Assembly (NCBI GenBank): GCA_014859085.1
Contig: JACUUY010000011.1
Location: 1-33,390 of the forward strand
DNA length: 33,390 bases
Direction of reading: 5' to 3'
Source of the DNA: Caldifarciminota bacterium
Lineage (GTDB): Bacteria > Hydrothermota > Tepidihabitantia > SM23-42
The translations under genes were made by a program, and so were the position numbers. Below the pieces are notes generated by a model. It did not search any database. It was not told the origin of the DNA and saw nothing but the letters and a program-made list of their open reading frames with translations. Shown one piece after another: positions 3,112-27,292 of this stretch. Position 1 is the stretch's first letter. Each line of letters opens with the position of its first letter.

Positions 3112-3828
3112 ATGAGCGAGAAGCACGCGTCCTTTATCGACCACCTGGAGGAATTGCGGAGAAGAATACTGTGGTCGATCGCCGCCGTCGCAGTGTGCAC
3201 GGCGGCCGGCTTCTTCTTCGCAAAGAATTTTCTGAACACGATAATCGAGAGAGCGTCGCTGGGAACCACATACTTCTTTGCTCCCACCGAAGCTTTCACG
3301 GCCCAGATAAAAGCGGCAGTATTCCTTGGCGTCGTGGTATCCTTTCCTTACCTCCTGTATCAGAGCTGGGCATTCATCGGTCCCGGATTGACCAGGGACG
3401 AGCGGCGCGTTTCCCTGAGCTATATGAGCTCCGGTATCCTGCTGTTTGCCCTGGGCATTTTCTTCGGGTATTACATACTGATCCCGTACGGCCTCAAATT
3501 CCTGCTCTCATTCGGCAGTGAGACGATCCAGCCCATGATAAATATCGGCAAGTACATGAACTTCTTCCTCTGGTGCCTGCTGGGCAGCGGCCTGCTGTTT
3601 CAATTGCCGCTCGTGCTTTTTTTCCTGATGCGCCTGGGTGTGGTGGATGTCGATACGATCTCCAGGCACCGGCCAGAGGCCATCGTTGCGGTCCTGATCC
3701 TCTGTGCCGTGATCACGCCGACCGGTGACTTCTTCACGCTCCTCCTCCTCTCCATACCCCTCCTGCTGCTTTTTGAGTTGAGCATTCTGGTTGCCCGGTT
3801 CACCGGGAAGCGCCGCCATAGACAATAG
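3112..3828 (+). CDS. tatC: Sec-independent protein translocase TatC
   Basis: 238 aa; FIDHLEELRRRILWS N-terminus, FAPTEAFTAQIKAAVFLGVVVSFPYLLYQSWAFIGPGLTRDERR, multiple TM segments. Confidence 0.95.
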   Translation: MSEKHASFIDHLEELRRRILWSIAAVAVCTAAGFFFAKNFLNTIIERASLGTTYFFAPTEAFTAQIKAAVFLGVVVSFPYLLYQSWAFIGPGLTRDERRVSLSYMSSGILLFALGIFFGYYILIPYGLKFLLSFGSETIQPMINIGKYMNFFLWCLLGSGLLFQLPLVLFFLMRLGVVDVDTISRHRPEAIVAVLILCAVITPTGDFFTLLLLSIPLLLLFELSILVARFTGKRRHRQ

Positions 3829-3844
3829 TCCCTGCAGAAGGGAC
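3828..3844 (+). terminator. small hairpin after tatC, possible terminator
   Basis: GTCCC-tgcagaa-GGGAC immediately after the tatC stop; no clear U-tract. Confidence 0.25.
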
Positions 3845-3851
3845 CTCACCC

Positions 3852-3879
3852 TTGACTTCTGCGTATTTTTTGGTACAAT
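3852..3879 (+). promoter_or_regulatory. promoter TTGACT-N16-TACAAT for tRNA-Ala
   Basis: TTGACT 3852-3857, TACAAT 3874-3879, 16-bp spacer, about 26 nt before the tRNA. Confidence 0.6.
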
Positions 3880-3905
3880 CCCCTCTATAGAGAGAACTGA
3901 TAGCC

Positions 3906-3978
3906 GGGGCCGTAGTTCAGCTGGGAGAGCGCTTGACTGGCAGTCAAGAGGTCACGGGTTCGAATCCCGTCGGCTCCA
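3906..3978 (+). tRNA. tRNA-Ala (anticodon GGC)
   Basis: Cloverleaf GGGGCCG..GTTCAGCTGGGAGAGC..CTTGA-CTGGCAG-TCAAG..GGTTCGAATCC..CGGCTCC-A; G3:U70 identity pair; CCA not encoded. Confidence 0.95.
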
Positions 3979-14669: not shown

Positions 14670-15557
14670 TTACGATCTGCTCTGCGGTGATTGATCGAAT
14701 ATCTCGGCGGCGTGATAGGAGGAACGGACCAGGGGTCCGCTGACCACGTATCTGATGCCGATGGTCTGCCCGGCTTTTCTCAAGCGGGCGAATTCATCGG
14801 GCGTGTAATACCTCTGGACCGGAACATGCTTTCTCGTGGGCTGCAGGTATTGGCCGATCGTGACGATATCGACACCGGCATGCTTCAGATCGTGCAAAGC
14901 GGTCAGGATCTCTTGCTCTTGTTCACCCAGCCCGACCATCAGGCCGCTCTTGGTAATCGACTTCGGATTCAATTCCTTGCACTTCCTGAGCACGTCCAGC
15001 GAAACGGCGTAGCCGCAGCGCCGGTCCCGCACATACGGCGTGAGCCGCGCTACGGTCTCCAGATTGTGGCCTATTACATAGGGCCGGGCATCGATTATCC
15101 ACAGCAGACAGCCGGCATCCGCCCTGAAATCGGGAATGAGCGCCTCGACGTTCGTCGACGGGTTACTCTGATTGATGCGGTCTATCGTCTGTGCATAGTG
15201 GCGGCTGCCATAGTCAACAAGATCGTCCCGGTCCACCGAAGTGATAACAACATATCTCAAGGCCAGCGCACGGACGACTTCGGCAACATGGCCGGGTTCG
15301 TCGCGGTCGACCACACCTCGCGGGTTGCCGGTCGCCACCGCACAGAACCGGCACGCGCGCGTGCAGACCTTGCCCAGGATCATGATCGCAGCGCTCTTCT
15401 TAGCCCAGCATTCGCCGATATTCGGACAGCGCGCTTCCTTGCATACCGTGGAAAGATTATGGTCTTCGAGGATCTTGTAGATCGACTTGTAGCCATCGCC
15501 CGAGGGAATCTTGATCCGGAGCCAGTCCGGTTTTTTTAGATAATCTCTTCTAAACAT
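14670..15557 (-). CDS. lipA: lipoyl synthase
   Basis: 295 aa; ARCPNIGECW and CTRACRFCAV (radical SAM CxxxCxxC), LKHAGVDIVTIGQYLQPTRKHVPVQRYYTPDEF. Confidence 0.97.
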   Translation of the reverse strand: MFRRDYLKKPDWLRIKIPSGDGYKSIYKILEDHNLSTVCKEARCPNIGECWAKKSAAIMILGKVCTRACRFCAVATGNPRGVVDRDEPGHVAEVVRALALRYVVITSVDRDDLVDYGSRHYAQTIDRINQSNPSTNVEALIPDFRADAGCLLWIIDARPYVIGHNLETVARLTPYVRDRRCGYAVSLDVLRKCKELNPKSITKSGLMVGLGEQEQEILTALHDLKHAGVDIVTIGQYLQPTRKHVPVQRYYTPDEFARLRKAGQTIGIRYVVSGPLVRSSYHAAEIFDQSPQSRS

Positions 15558-16249
15558 GTGCGCTTCGTCTCCGCGTCGAAAATAACGCCGAAATTATTGA
15601 TAACCCTCTGCTTCACGTCATCTAACGCAATTTCCCTGCCCGATATCTGATGCATCGACGTCATCTGGACATTCTTGAGACCACACGGGACGATCAGATC
15701 GAAATACCCGAGATCGGTATTGACATTCAGGGCAAAACCATGGAAGCTGACCCATCTCTTTACCGCGATACCGATCGAGCAGATCTTGCACTCACCGGTC
15801 CACACGCCGACCATTTTTTCCTTCCGGTATGCTGCAATATGGAAGTCAGCGAGCGTCGCGATGATCGCCTCCTCGATCTTGTTGATGAAGGGCTTGATAC
15901 CGGCGAGTCCGTCTCTCACGTTGAATACCGGATAACCGACCAGCTGACCAGGGCCATGGTATGTTGCGTCGCCGCCGCGTTCGATATCGTAGAACGCAAC
16001 ACCTCTTCCCTTCAGGGAATCGACCGGAAAGAGCAAGCTGCTGTCATGCCCGCTCCGGCCCATGGTGACGACCGGGTTGTGTTCGACCAGGATCAGCGTA
16101 TTCGGGATCTGCGCCGCCACCCTCTTCTCATAGATGACCTTCTGCAGATCCCAGGCTTCCTTATAATCCCGGTGGCCCAAATCCAACACCTGCACGGAGC
16201 GCTCCTTATCCCGCCTATCCTGCTGGATCGGACAATTACTCTTTATCAA
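15536..16249 (-). CDS. lipB: lipoyl(octanoyl) transferase
   Basis: 237 aa, TTG start; VTMGRSG, RGGDATYHGPGQLVGYPV, KICSIGIAVKRWVSFHGFALNVNTDLGYFDLIVPCGL. Confidence 0.95.
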   Translation of the reverse strand: MIKSNCPIQQDRRDKERSVQVLDLGHRDYKEAWDLQKVIYEKRVAAQIPNTLILVEHNPVVTMGRSGHDSSLLFPVDSLKGRGVAFYDIERGGDATYHGPGQLVGYPVFNVRDGLAGIKPFINKIEEAIIATLADFHIAAYRKEKMVGVWTGECKICSIGIAVKRWVSFHGFALNVNTDLGYFDLIVPCGLKNVQMTSMHQISGREIALDDVKQRVINNFGVIFDAETKRTCLEEII

Positions 16250-16493
16250 CGGTGGCGCTTACCGGAATGGGTTTGACCGGCGGCCGGTATGTCGGCTGGA
16301 CAACTTTCTCGATCGGGATACCGAGTTCCCTCGATATTATCTTGGCGATGTGCCGGCGGCATCCTTTGCCCTGGCACAGACCCATAGTGGCGCGGAGGAT
16401 CCTCTTCAACTCATCCATCGTGCGGTATCCTTCATGGATCTTCCGGACTATCTCTTCCTCGGTGATATCTTCGCAGCGACAGATAATTTTCAT
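16236..16493 (-). CDS. BFD-like [2Fe-2S]-binding protein
   Basis: 85 aa; IICRCEDITEEEIVRKI...LKRILRATMGLCQGKGCRRHIAKII (CxC...CxxxxC pattern). Confidence 0.88.
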   Translation of the reverse strand: MKIICRCEDITEEEIVRKIHEGYRTMDELKRILRATMGLCQGKGCRRHIAKIISRELGIPIEKVVQPTYRPPVKPIPVSATVDKE

Positions 16494-16498
16494 GGCCT

Positions 16499-16526
16499 AT
16501 TCTATCCGAAAATTCACTGGAGTCAA
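16499..16526 (-). promoter_or_regulatory. promoter TTGACT-N16-TAGAAT for the BFD-like gene, apparently leaderless
   Basis: Minus strand: TTGACT 16526-16521, TAGAAT 16504-16499, start ATG at 16493 (5 nt after the -10). Confidence 0.6.
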
Positions 16527-16547
16527 GCCGGTCAAAACCGTCTCCGT

Positions 16548-16583
16548 ACTCTGGCATTCTGGTAATTACCAGAATGCCAGAGT
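16548..16583. repeat. perfect 36-bp palindrome
   Basis: ACTCTGGCATTCTGGTAATTACCAGAATGCCAGAGT is identical to its reverse complement. Confidence 0.98.
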
Positions 16584-16690
16584 GAATGGCGATCATCGAT
16601 ACCTAGCCAAGAAAGAATACTTTTGCTTAACTGCCTTAAGTACGAACAGAAAGCACTCTCGCACAGAAGAATCGTACGATATCGTAATTA

Positions 16691-16718
16691 TTGACGCCGC
16701 AGGTTTTTTGTGTATCAT
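16691..16718 (+). promoter_or_regulatory. promoter TTGACG-N16-TATCAT for the ferredoxin-like gene, apparently leaderless
   Basis: TTGACG 16691-16696, TATCAT 16713-16718, ATG at 16727 (8 nt later). Confidence 0.55.
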
Positions 16719-16726
16719 ATGACATC

Positions 16727-17173
16727 ATGAATACCGAAGTACCCGCGGCATGCCGAAAGGCCGGGCCGTACGTGGTTATCGAGTGTCCGGAGAAAATACC
16801 CTGCGATCCGTGTGTTGATGCATGCCCGAACCAGGCGATATCGATGTGTGGTTCAATAATCGAACTGCCCGAGATCGACTACGAGAAATGCACCGGTTGT
16901 CTCGTATGTATTCCAAGGTGCCCGGGCCTGGCGATATTCGTCGTCGATGAAACGCCCGAAGACCACTCGATCGTCTACATACCCTATGAATTCCTGCCCC
17001 GGCCCAAGAAGGGCGACCGGGCAATCGGACTGGACCGCGAAGGACGTGAAACGTGTGAAGTCGAAGTCACAAAGGTCATCGATGCCAGGAAATTCGACCG
17101 GTGCGCGATCGTCGGTTTCTCGGTCCCCAAGGACCTGGCTCAGGAGATCAGGGCGATCAAGGTCGGCGAGTGA
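16727..17173 (+). CDS. 4Fe-4S ferredoxin-like protein
   Basis: 148 aa from MNTEVPAACRK; CDPCVDACPNQAI and CTGCLVCIPRCPG cluster-binding motifs. Confidence 0.88.
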   Translation: MNTEVPAACRKAGPYVVIECPEKIPCDPCVDACPNQAISMCGSIIELPEIDYEKCTGCLVCIPRCPGLAIFVVDETPEDHSIVYIPYEFLPRPKKGDRAIGLDREGRETCEVEVTKVIDARKFDRCAIVGFSVPKDLAQEIRAIKVGE

Positions 17174-17214
17174 CTTTCTATGTTGGAATACGATCCAAAC
17201 AATGAGGTGAAAAA

Positions 17215-18819
17215 ATGATGAAAAAAATCTATGCTTTGTTACTGCTCGTGTTGGCGACGGCATCTGCCGGCGAGCATCTTGTCCGCATTGACCTGACCGA
17301 AGTAAGGCTTGCGCCGCTCGCGCAGCGCGGTCTCCGCGTCCTTGCCGAACTCGAAAACTGTGCGATCGTCCTGCTCGATGATGCCGAGTTTGAAAAGATA
17401 TCTTCGCTCGATCATCAGATACTGGCCAGCGCACCGCAAGAAGGCGATTATTACCTGGCACGGCCCATGACCGGCACGGCCGACCTTACCCTTTTCAGCA
17501 ACATCCTGACCCGTGACGTTGAGGATTATCTGATCAAAGTACACCAGGGCATGCTGGAACAGGTCCTCAACCAGAAGGTCATGGTCAAACGCCTTTCTTT
17601 CACGCCGATGGTCCTTTCCAGCGCGGCCGATCTTCCGGTCTTCCCGCGCGTGTCCTACAACGAGACGGTTGCCGAGATCCTGACCCTCGTTGACGCGGAC
17701 AGCATATTGGCAAAAGTCCAGCGACTGCAGGATTTCGTCACCCGGTTATCGATCCACGATTCATGCCTGGCCGCGGCATACCACATCCACGACCGGTTCA
17801 CGGCCCTGGGTCTGGACTCGGTCTTCTTCCAGTATCACACGACCGGCCATGCACCCAATGTCATTGCGATCAAACGCGGCACGCTATATCCGGATTCGAT
17901 ATATGCCGTGATCTGCGGCCACTTCGATTCGTATGCCTTCTATTCGCCTAATTTCGCACCCGGCGCCGATGACAACGCAAGCGGCACTTCGGCCGTGCTC
18001 GAAGCAGCGCGCGTGATGCGTGACTATGACTTTGAATATTCGATCCGCTACATTGCGTTCTCCGGCGAGGAGTACGGCATGTACGGCAGCGGCTACTATG
18101 CGCAGCATGCACGCGCCCAGGGTGACAGCATTCTCGGCGTCATCAACGGCGACATGCTCGCATACGTCGACATAGCACCGGAGTCGCTCGAGGTCATTGC
18201 CAAACCAAGCAATCCGCCCTGCGAACCCTTTGCCGATTTCTTCATTGCCGCAGCCGATACTTATACTGCTCTCCTGACCCACAAGCAGCTGTCCTACACG
18301 ATGGTCTATTCAGACCACGCGCCCTTCTGGGACCAGGGTTATCTGGCGCTGTGCAACATCGAGGACTGGACCAATTATGGTACGAACAATCCATTCATTC
18401 ATTCAACCGGCGATTCGATCGGCGCGGGATTCAATAACCTTGCATTCTGTACTGAATGCACGAAAGCGGAGATTGCGGCCCTGGCATTGCTGGCGGTTCC
18501 GGTTGGTACCGGCATTGCAGAAGCGCCGGCCGACCGGCCGGGGAATGTCGTCATATGCGTAAGGCCGAGCGTGAGCAAGGGGCTTTTCGCGATCTCGCTC
18601 GCAAGCGGATCCATGGATCTCGTTGGTCTGAGGATCCATGACGTGACCGGCCGCTTAGTGAAGAATATCGCCCTGCCGTCATCTGAGACCAGCCGTCTCC
18701 TGTCGGTCACTTGGGACGGCACGGATAACGCGGGACAGCAACTGGCCGCAGGCATATACTTTGTTGCGGTCGATAATGGCGCCGCAACACAAACCGAAAA
18801 GCTCGTTTTGATCCGCTAA
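17215..18819 (+). CDS. secreted M28-family metallopeptidase with C-terminal FlgD/T9SS-like sorting domain
   Basis: 534 aa; signal peptide; CGHFDSYAF...APGADDNASGTSAVLEAARVM...FSGEEYGMYGSGYYA; C-terminal WDGTDNAGQQLAAGIYFVAVDNGAATQTEKLVLIR. Confidence 0.9.
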   Translation: MMKKIYALLLLVLATASAGEHLVRIDLTEVRLAPLAQRGLRVLAELENCAIVLLDDAEFEKISSLDHQILASAPQEGDYYLARPMTGTADLTLFSNILTRDVEDYLIKVHQGMLEQVLNQKVMVKRLSFTPMVLSSAADLPVFPRVSYNETVAEILTLVDADSILAKVQRLQDFVTRLSIHDSCLAAAYHIHDRFTALGLDSVFFQYHTTGHAPNVIAIKRGTLYPDSIYAVICGHFDSYAFYSPNFAPGADDNASGTSAVLEAARVMRDYDFEYSIRYIAFSGEEYGMYGSGYYAQHARAQGDSILGVINGDMLAYVDIAPESLEVIAKPSNPPCEPFADFFIAAADTYTALLTHKQLSYTMVYSDHAPFWDQGYLALCNIEDWTNYGTNNPFIHSTGDSIGAGFNNLAFCTECTKAEIAALALLAVPVGTGIAEAPADRPGNVVICVRPSVSKGLFAISLASGSMDLVGLRIHDVTGRLVKNIALPSSETSRLLSVTWDGTDNAGQQLAAGIYFVAVDNGAATQTEKLVLIR

Positions 18820-25720: not shown

Positions 25721-25748
25721 TTGACAGGTTCGCAAACGTGAATATAAT
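25721..25748 (+). promoter_or_regulatory. consensus promoter TTGACA-N16-TATAAT for the AbiE operon
   Basis: TTGACA 25721-25726, TATAAT 25743-25748; makes GTG 25738 unusable as a start. Confidence 0.75.
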
Positions 25749-25765
25749 TGTTTCTGATAATAACA

Positions 25766-25779
25766 AAATAATATTATTT
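25766..25779. promoter_or_regulatory. 14-bp perfect palindrome, candidate AbiEi operator
   Basis: AAATAATATTATTT between the -10 box and the abiEi-like start codon. Confidence 0.4.
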
Positions 25780-25785
25780 ACGGAA

Positions 25786-26412
25786 ATGAAATATATTGAC
25801 TTTAAAAACCGGAGCAGGGACTTTCCCGTATTTTCCTCGCAGCAACTCAGGGCGTTCGGAGGGAACACGCAGGTCATGAGAAATCAATTGACCGGCTGGT
25901 GCAAGAAAGGATTGGTCATCAAGCTCAAAAGGGGCACGTATGTCCTGAACGATGCCGACCGCCGGATAACGCCTTCCCGGCTGTTCCTCGCCAATGAGCT
26001 CTACCAACCATCGTACGTCAGCACCGAATATGCCCTGCATTACCACGACCTCATCCCTGAGCGGGTTGCGGACCTTACTTCAGTGTCACCGAGGAAATCG
26101 GCAACCTTTAGAAATCATTTCGGCCGGTTCATCTACCAGCAAGTCAAAACGAGTATTTTCACGGGTTACCGCATGCTCAAAGACGAAAACGGCCTCAATA
26201 TCCTGGTCGCCGAACCAGAAAAAGGACTGCTCGATTTCCTCTACTTGAATCTTTCGCGGTTTACGGACCTTGCAGAGGTCATCGAATCCCTGCGGCTCCA
26301 GCACATCGAAACATTGAGAAAAAACAAACTCATCGCGTATGCCCGGCTGTTCGGCCACGATAAACTGTTGCGCTTCGCCAACGAATTGGTTTCGTATATG
26401 AAAAAGAGGTGA
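25786..26412 (+). CDS. AbiEi-like antitoxin / transcriptional regulator (type IV TA)
   Basis: Winged-helix N-terminus (MRNQLTGWCKKGLVIKLKRGTYVLND), LFLANELYQPSYVSTEYALHYHDLIPE, followed by an AbiEii-type nucleotidyltransferase. Confidence 0.85.
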   Translation: MKYIDFKNRSRDFPVFSSQQLRAFGGNTQVMRNQLTGWCKKGLVIKLKRGTYVLNDADRRITPSRLFLANELYQPSYVSTEYALHYHDLIPERVADLTSVSPRKSATFRNHFGRFIYQQVKTSIFTGYRMLKDENGLNILVAEPEKGLLDFLYLNLSRFTDLAEVIESLRLQHIETLRKNKLIAYARLFGHDKLLRFANELVSYMKKR

Positions 26413-27212
26413 TCATGGAAGACATCATCCGCAATTTACTGTCGAAGGAAAGAACCGCAGAGGAGAAGATCAACCGTCTTCGTGAATTCCTGCAGATCTT
26501 GATACTCCGTGAGATCTATGAAAGGAAGTATTTCCAGCACCTCAGTTTTGTCGGCGGGACTGCCTTGCGGTTCTTGTACGGCCTGCGGCGTTTTTCAGAA
26601 GACCTCGACTTCTCCGTCTTCAGTCGTCCTGGCTACGATTTTGACAAACTCGCGACCGACCTGCGGCGCGGTATGGGATACCATGGATTCGATGTCGACG
26701 TGAAGACGGATGATCTGAAAACCGTGCAAAACATCGACCTCAAGTTCATAAACCTGCTCGTTACGTATGGCTTATCGCGCATCAAATCGCAAAAACTCTA
26801 CATTCGTATGGAAATTGACACGAACCCGCCAAGGGGCTGGAAAACTGAAGTTTCGGCAATCAACCGGACTTTCATTTTTACAGTGACGCATTTTGATTTG
26901 AACTCTCTTTTTGCCCTCAAGGTCCATGCTTGTTTCTACAGAAAATACACGAAGGGACGCGATTTTTATGATCTGATCTGGTACTTGGGCAAGAAGATCC
27001 TTCCTAACTTTCCTCTGTTGAACAGCGCAGTGAAGCAAACCGAAGGAAAAGATCCGCGTATTACGCCGGCCAATTTTCGTGCTTTCCTGGCCGAAAAACT
27101 AACTGGAACCGATTTTGCCAGGGCGCGCAAAGATGTCGAACGTTTTCTTGAAGATAAGAGCGAACTGAAGTTATTCGACCGACAAACGATTCTCAGCATG
27201 CTCGAGCCATAA
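26409..27212 (+). CDS. AbiEii/DUF1814-type nucleotidyltransferase toxin
   Basis: FVGGTALRFLYGLRRFSEDLDFSVF nucleotidyltransferase signature; LFALKVHACFYRKYTKGRDFYDLIWYL; overlaps the antitoxin stop. Confidence 0.9.
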   Translation: MIMEDIIRNLLSKERTAEEKINRLREFLQILILREIYERKYFQHLSFVGGTALRFLYGLRRFSEDLDFSVFSRPGYDFDKLATDLRRGMGYHGFDVDVKTDDLKTVQNIDLKFINLLVTYGLSRIKSQKLYIRMEIDTNPPRGWKTEVSAINRTFIFTVTHFDLNSLFALKVHACFYRKYTKGRDFYDLIWYLGKKILPNFPLLNSAVKQTEGKDPRITPANFRAFLAEKLTGTDFARARKDVERFLEDKSELKLFDRQTILSMLEP

Positions 27213-27246: not shown

Positions 27247-27274
27247 TTGACATAACCAGGCATTCGACTATAAT
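27247..27274 (+). promoter_or_regulatory. consensus promoter TTGACA-N16-TATAAT of the DUF134 gene cluster
   Basis: TTGACA 27247-27252, TATAAT 27269-27274. Confidence 0.75.
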
Positions 27275-27292
27275 GAACCTATGTTCATTATA
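27269..27292. promoter_or_regulatory. inverted repeat overlapping the -10 box, candidate operator
   Basis: TATAATGAAC-ctat-GTTCATTATA, perfect 10-bp arms. Confidence 0.6.

Follow-up and report, generated by a model that had tools for sequence, protein, structure and literature searches.

Operators of the SmtB/ArsR type, as described for SmtB, ZiaR and AzuR, are 12-2-12 inverted repeats located at or overlapping the -35 element (PMC8790569). In other regulator families, regulators and their motifs diverge in parallel, as is reported for IclR (PMC8222616) and LacI (PMC4052901). Here, we present a 36-bp perfect palindrome that, judged from sequence comparisons, probably acts as the operator of an ArsR-type regulator family. 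It shares with the SmtB/ArsR systems a palindromic site at or overlapping the -35 (here at the regulator's own gene) and a winged-helix regulator of about 100 aa that is dimeric by family. The inner 26 bp form a perfect 12-2-12 repeat, which suggests that the motif functions in the manner of an ArsR-type operator, and probably is one, lengthened at both ends. Unlike the known operators, however, the sites described here are 32-40 bp long without a spacer, carry an outer block in addition, 8 bp from the inner one, bracket the regulator gene on both sides and also occur as dispersed copies in convergent gaps. The regulator falls below the NCBIfam metalloregulator cut-off, and the copy that we started from is not on a promoter. 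As is reported for the IclR and LacI families, paralogs combine a common binding framework with diverging bases, but the present family is of ArsR type, belongs to an uncultured lineage and has unusually long perfect palindromes.

The window, i.e., the whole stretch of 33,390 bases that was analysed, contains ACTCTGGCATTCTGGTAATTACCAGAATGCCAGAGT at 16548-16583, which is exactly self-complementary (36 bp, 18-bp arms, spacer 0). No other perfect palindrome of the window approaches this length, the runner-up having 10-bp arms, and about 5e-7 gapless palindromes with 18-bp arms are expected by chance in 33,390 bases of this composition. A first-pass annotation had described a perfect, spacerless 36-bp palindrome between divergent genes, 22 bp from the -35 of a BFD-like and 107 bp from that of a ferredoxin-like gene. 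This description holds: the flanking Fer2_BFD (minus strand) and Fer4 ferredoxin (plus strand) genes diverge, and the palindrome edge lies 21-22 bp upstream of the TTGACT of the bfd promoter and 107 bp from the TTGACG of the ferredoxin promoter (Table 1). Both transcripts look leaderless because only a few bases separate the -10 boxes from the start codons. The location of the bfd promoter directly before the start codon is conserved across the whole order.

Table 1. Palindrome, neighbouring genes and promoters in window coordinates
Feature	Position	Strand	Basis or remark
LipA-like lipoyl synthase (radical SAM), as we presume	14670..15557	-	
LipB-like octanoyltransferase, as we presume, downstream of bfd	15536..16249	-	start codon uncertain
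BFD-like [2Fe-2S] protein, 85 aa	16236..16493	-	Fer2_BFD (PF04324)
Sigma-70-like promoter TTGACT-N16-TAGAAT of bfd-lipB-lipA	16499..16526	-	
36-bp perfect palindrome, predicted clade-A ArsR operator motif	16548..16583	.	sequence, copies, covariance model
Perfect 12-2-12 core GGCATTCTGGTA-AT-TACCAGAATGCC	16553-16578		inner 26 bp of longer palindrome
Palindrome core TTCTGGTAATTACCAGAA	16557-16574		
Sigma-70-like promoter TTGACG-N16-TATCAT of ferredoxin gene	16691..16718	+	
4Fe-4S ferredoxin-like protein, 148 aa	16727..17173	+	Fer4

The candidate regulator is encoded elsewhere in the source genome (G000). On contig C155 (41474-41779), the gene of a 102-aa ArsR/SmtB-family regulator has one copy of the palindrome on each side. 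On the upstream side, the copy directly adjoins the -35 of TTGACA-N16-TATAAT, a perfect and leaderless promoter with the start codon a few bases after the TATAAT. On the downstream side, the copy shares bases with the stop codon and precedes a nitroreductase gene. The protein scores above the cut-off of the Pfam HTH_5 model (PF01022; 35.8 bits, cut-off 22), and among solved structures SmtB is its best match, with CzrA also close. It remains below the cut-off of the NCBIfam metalloregulator ArsR/SmtB model (NF033788; 45.2 bits, cut-off 55), and metal sensing is therefore not to be assumed. No CxC near alpha3 was seen in the translated ArsR sequences, and nearly all members keep a single Cys in RxCRxLGNP.

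The bracketing is conserved. All 16 intact orthologs of this regulator (clade A) have at least one bracketing copy and 13 of the 16 have both, weaker copies counted; the upstream copy is reduced to half in G018 and is not clear in G010 and G012. Among sites of this palindrome type (type A), 27/99 have an ArsR-family gene no more than 110 bp away, as compared to 0.05 expected, and the adjoining ArsR genes belong to clade A only, at 58-99% identity. The upstream site is centred 49-62 bp before the query-aligned start and the downstream site about 19 bp past the end. With an intact upstream site, the offset between the palindrome edge and the start of TTGACA-N16-TATAAT is -2 to +5 bp; the -35 is weaker in G022. 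The unit of palindrome and arsR is kept despite changed neighbours, which are rnf and nitroreductase in most of family f1 and other genes in G021/G022 and in G023/G026 (family f2). In four genomes of the order (G003, G009, G019, G025) the covariance model finds 0 sites, and the clade-A regulator is absent there too. Individual loci depart from the common arrangement. In G010 (L084), the clade-A frame continues through the downstream palindrome, which thus encodes the C-terminus of a 113-aa protein. In G020 (C349; L136 1663-4350), an extra gene between rnf and arsR, absent at that place in most relatives, has near-identical palindromes on both sides, as if these were junction marks of an insertion.

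At the level of sequence, the decisive test of the operator reading comes from ArsR paralogs of other clades, which have different palindromes of 32-40 bp at the same place. Perfect palindromes that contain the -35 are found at paralogs in G017 C86 (TCATTTTCACATTTTGTCAATTGACAAAATGTGAAAATGA, 40 bp) and G008 C87 (ATTTTATCATTTTGTCAATTGACAAAATGATAAAAT, 36 bp), TTACGACAATTGTCGTAA-type sites occur at paralogs in G001 and G019, and both sides of the gene are occupied in G000 C14 (imperfect), G001 C53 and G019 C20. Upstream of 35/49 ArsR genes, 12 or more of 16 arm bases are paired, vs 33/480 other genes, many of which themselves adjoin a site. A scan for the second palindrome type returned 75 sites, 26 of them beside clade-B ArsR genes (0.04 expected) and none beside clade-A genes. 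The types have a framework in common, T.....A.T..G.YAA|TTR.C..A.T.....A, and the distances between operators and between proteins are correlated (Mantel r=0.39, 0/2000 permutations). Shared framework and co-divergence are what would be expected of a regulator family with one binding mode and diverging specificity. The palindrome of the C14 paralog gave its two bracketing copies, one weak match in G010 and nothing else; not every paralog therefore has dispersed sites.

Because the bracketing of arsR is kept, paralogs have palindromes of their own and operators diverge with their proteins, the palindrome is very probably a cognate ArsR operator. A high-affinity dimer operator, one of the options raised in the first-pass annotation, is thus the one favoured, the likely regulator being the ArsR/SmtB-type protein whose gene is bracketed by two copies. 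The winged-helix regulator from C155 would bind the window palindrome in trans, as one dimer or as two dimers on the two identical half-sites. Since the palindrome abuts the -35 of the perfect leaderless arsR promoter, binding there would most likely shut off arsR transcription (autorepression). The window copy might in addition modulate bfd-lipB-lipA and possibly the divergent ferredoxin gene; lying upstream of the bfd -35 and not on it, it would be an upstream, looping, activating or silent site.

Copies were counted by pattern searches and covariance-model searches, and genes around sites were called by a simple script that gives approximate start codons. The source genome, that of a WOR-3-type bacterium (2.57 Mb, 252 contigs), has seven copies: the one in the window, two on C155 (375 bp apart), one each on C107 and C128, and two on C161 that sit inside a locally duplicated stretch. 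The covariance model recovers the identical set, and most copies have unique flanks. Relatives of the same order add about 90 further copies, 1-8 per genome, and the exact matches in a public genome set bear the label candidate division WOR-3. In a set of 38 additional genomes from the class but outside the order, strong covariance-model matches were confined to G027. The first-pass annotation had held that many unrelated copies would favour a dispersed repeat and that absence from close relatives would argue against function; the copies are few (7 in the genome) and the motif is present in close relatives. Viral origin was rejected, as the 26-mer core had no exact match in IMG/VR viral contigs. 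The C161 duplication (L024 4329-4959 and 6794-7322) involves several hundred bp with the palindrome at the end, repeated on either side of a beta-helix-type gene; a 300-bp part of it is 99% identical.

Control of bfd-lipB-lipA or of the ferredoxin gene by the window copy is, on present comparisons, possible rather than probable. The palindrome is found upstream of 4/23 bfd orthologs (G000, G001, G006, G011), 21-75 bp from a TTGACT-N16-TAGAAT-like promoter, and near the ferredoxin start in three genomes (G000, G005, G006). A specific Fe-S regulon is unsupported because few bfd and ferredoxin orthologs have the site and its spacing varies; the tie to Fe-S genes that the initial annotation implied is accordingly weak. 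A promoter-wide regulon was rejected as well. The 59 dispersed copies lie in 36 co-directional, 14 convergent and 9 divergent gaps, a mix that equals the background of all intergenic gaps (about 64/17/19%) and shows no enrichment in promoter regions. Several copies have the stop codon of a convergent gene about 10-55 bp away. Recurrent neighbours are nitroreductase, rnf, msrAB, secA, an arsenite-methyltransferase cluster, a selD-like gene with a ferredoxin-thioredoxin reductase subunit, a LigT-type phosphoesterase and an Rsm22-like gene, which is suggestive of a redox or thiol theme.

Ungapped alignment of 63 distinct sites gives roughly AnTCYGKYATTCYGGTAATTACCRGAATRMCRGAnT, in which the core TTCYGGTAATTACCRGAA is almost invariant and the outer arms vary yet remain complementary. 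Each half-site consists of two similar blocks, inner and outer, 8 bp apart (CTGGCATT CTGGTAAT). Arms match within a site more often than after shuffling within genomes (columns 5-8, 281 observed vs 235.9 +/- 7.0 shuffled). A plain homodimer operator has no need of matching beyond the arm pool of a genome; correction of imperfect palindromes through hairpins is a possible explanation.

Like the observations that follow, this excess of arm matching counts against the operator reading. Dispersed copies are not enriched at promoters (14/59 convergent vs 16-17% of gaps), and the motif is at bfd in 4/23 orthologs only. Palindromes occur in some genomes in which the clade-A regulator was not detected (G005, G008, G013, G014, G015, G017, G024) and in one, G001, that has it only as a pseudogene. 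The sites flanking ArsR genes are altered (CTCG) in G021/G022, whereas the dispersed sites are unaltered. Assembly gaps at palindromes may explain some of the regulator-less genomes, but not single-contig G005; regulator loss is another possible explanation. For palindromes in convergent gaps or without a regulator, an architectural role is possible. The G001 pseudogene (C21:35212-35443; L141 around 3712-3943) is a broken clade-A arsR beside which the palindrome remains, and the copies elsewhere in that genome are perfect palindromes.

It is distinctly unlikely that the palindrome is a dispersed repeat of the REP/MITE kind, neutral in intergenic gaps, with the bracketing of arsR as an old insertion pair. 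Like the REP or palindromic units of enterobacteria and pseudomonads, which go with RAYT transposases, the copies are short, intergenic and dispersed. The seven copies in unrelated contexts, the background-like orientation mix, the co-variation of arms within single sites and the five near-identical copies in G017, where the clade-A regulator was not detected, all fit such an origin. So does G027, from another order of the class, with nine or more near-identical copies, most of them inside a dispersed repeat of 210-270 bp. However, REP units are imperfect and number dozens to hundreds, as compared to a perfect palindrome with seven copies in 2.57 Mb here and 1-8 per genome, and the palindrome is tied to a regulator gene. 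Y1_Tnp genes were found in 26/27 genomes, and none of the ten best-scoring Y1/RAYT transposase loci has a palindrome within 1.5 kb. Unique flanks around most copies in the source genome also speak against a repeat, which moreover leaves unexplained why other ArsR clades have other palindromes at the same position. The suggestion of a small mobile or REP-type unit in the first-pass annotation thus agrees with the dispersal, with convergent gaps being occupied no less often than divergent ones and with the G027 repeat, but not with the small number of copies. The G027 repeat itself (L243-L250; roughly 82-97% identity between copies) may be a MITE-like element with a variant of the palindrome.

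An RNA stem-loop is very improbable as the function, be it a hairpin in 3' or 5' UTRs that stabilises mRNA or a bidirectional terminator serving transcripts from either side. The predicted fold as RNA (-28 kcal/mol, z = -8.4), the co-varying arms and the copies close to convergent stop codons would suit it, but conservation peaks at the central bases, which would form the loop. Transcripts from the two leaderless divergent promoters would not include the window copy, which is located upstream of both. An intrinsic terminator was rejected, as 16200-17300 contains 0 terminator-like sites (GC stem plus T-tract), in line with the original view that a terminator was unlikely. A known RNA was likewise rejected: no Rfam family exceeded its gathering score, and the sub-threshold matches were to eukaryotic miRNA and U7 families, as perfect hairpins can attract. 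There is equally little chance that the palindrome is a chromosome-organisation site, a nucleoid or segregation mark bound by an ArsR-like or other protein and not a promoter switch, since the few dispersed copies per genome, the lack of promoter preference and the copies in convergent gaps are offset by the tight link of the palindrome to the regulator's own promoter and by the lack of obvious clustering, judged by eye only, along single-contig G002, G005, G007 and G010.

With a cognate ArsR operator as the preferred reading, what appeared as an isolated curiosity becomes a regulator-operator family in an uncultured phylum. The 27 genomes encode about 60 ArsR-like proteins, and for 46 of the 49 examined a private palindrome can be read on one or both sides. 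They constitute a natural data set on how ArsR-type proteins read DNA, in which recognition helices such as SVKTxS, SVPTxS and SVQTxS can be set against matched operators. In genomes that have received little study, some of the 'dispersed palindromic repeats' may likewise be sites for transcription factors. A more far-reaching proposal, which we consider unlikely, is that the WOR-3 ArsR family consists of self-contained cassettes (palindrome, promoter, leaderless regulator, palindrome) with private 32-40-bp operators, and that solitary palindromes are genome-wide docking sites for proteins that would be partly chromosome-organising or mobile-cassette factors.

Two further features of the window lie apart from the palindrome. 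At 27269-27292, a perfect inverted repeat with 10-bp arms, TATAATGAAC-CTAT-GTTCATTATA, precedes the start of a DUF134-like gene (27312) by about 20 bp and looks like another operator. Two adjacent genes at 25738-27212 encode an antitoxin-like protein followed by a nucleotidyltransferase, presumably a pair resembling the AbiEi/AbiEii-type toxin-antitoxin systems.
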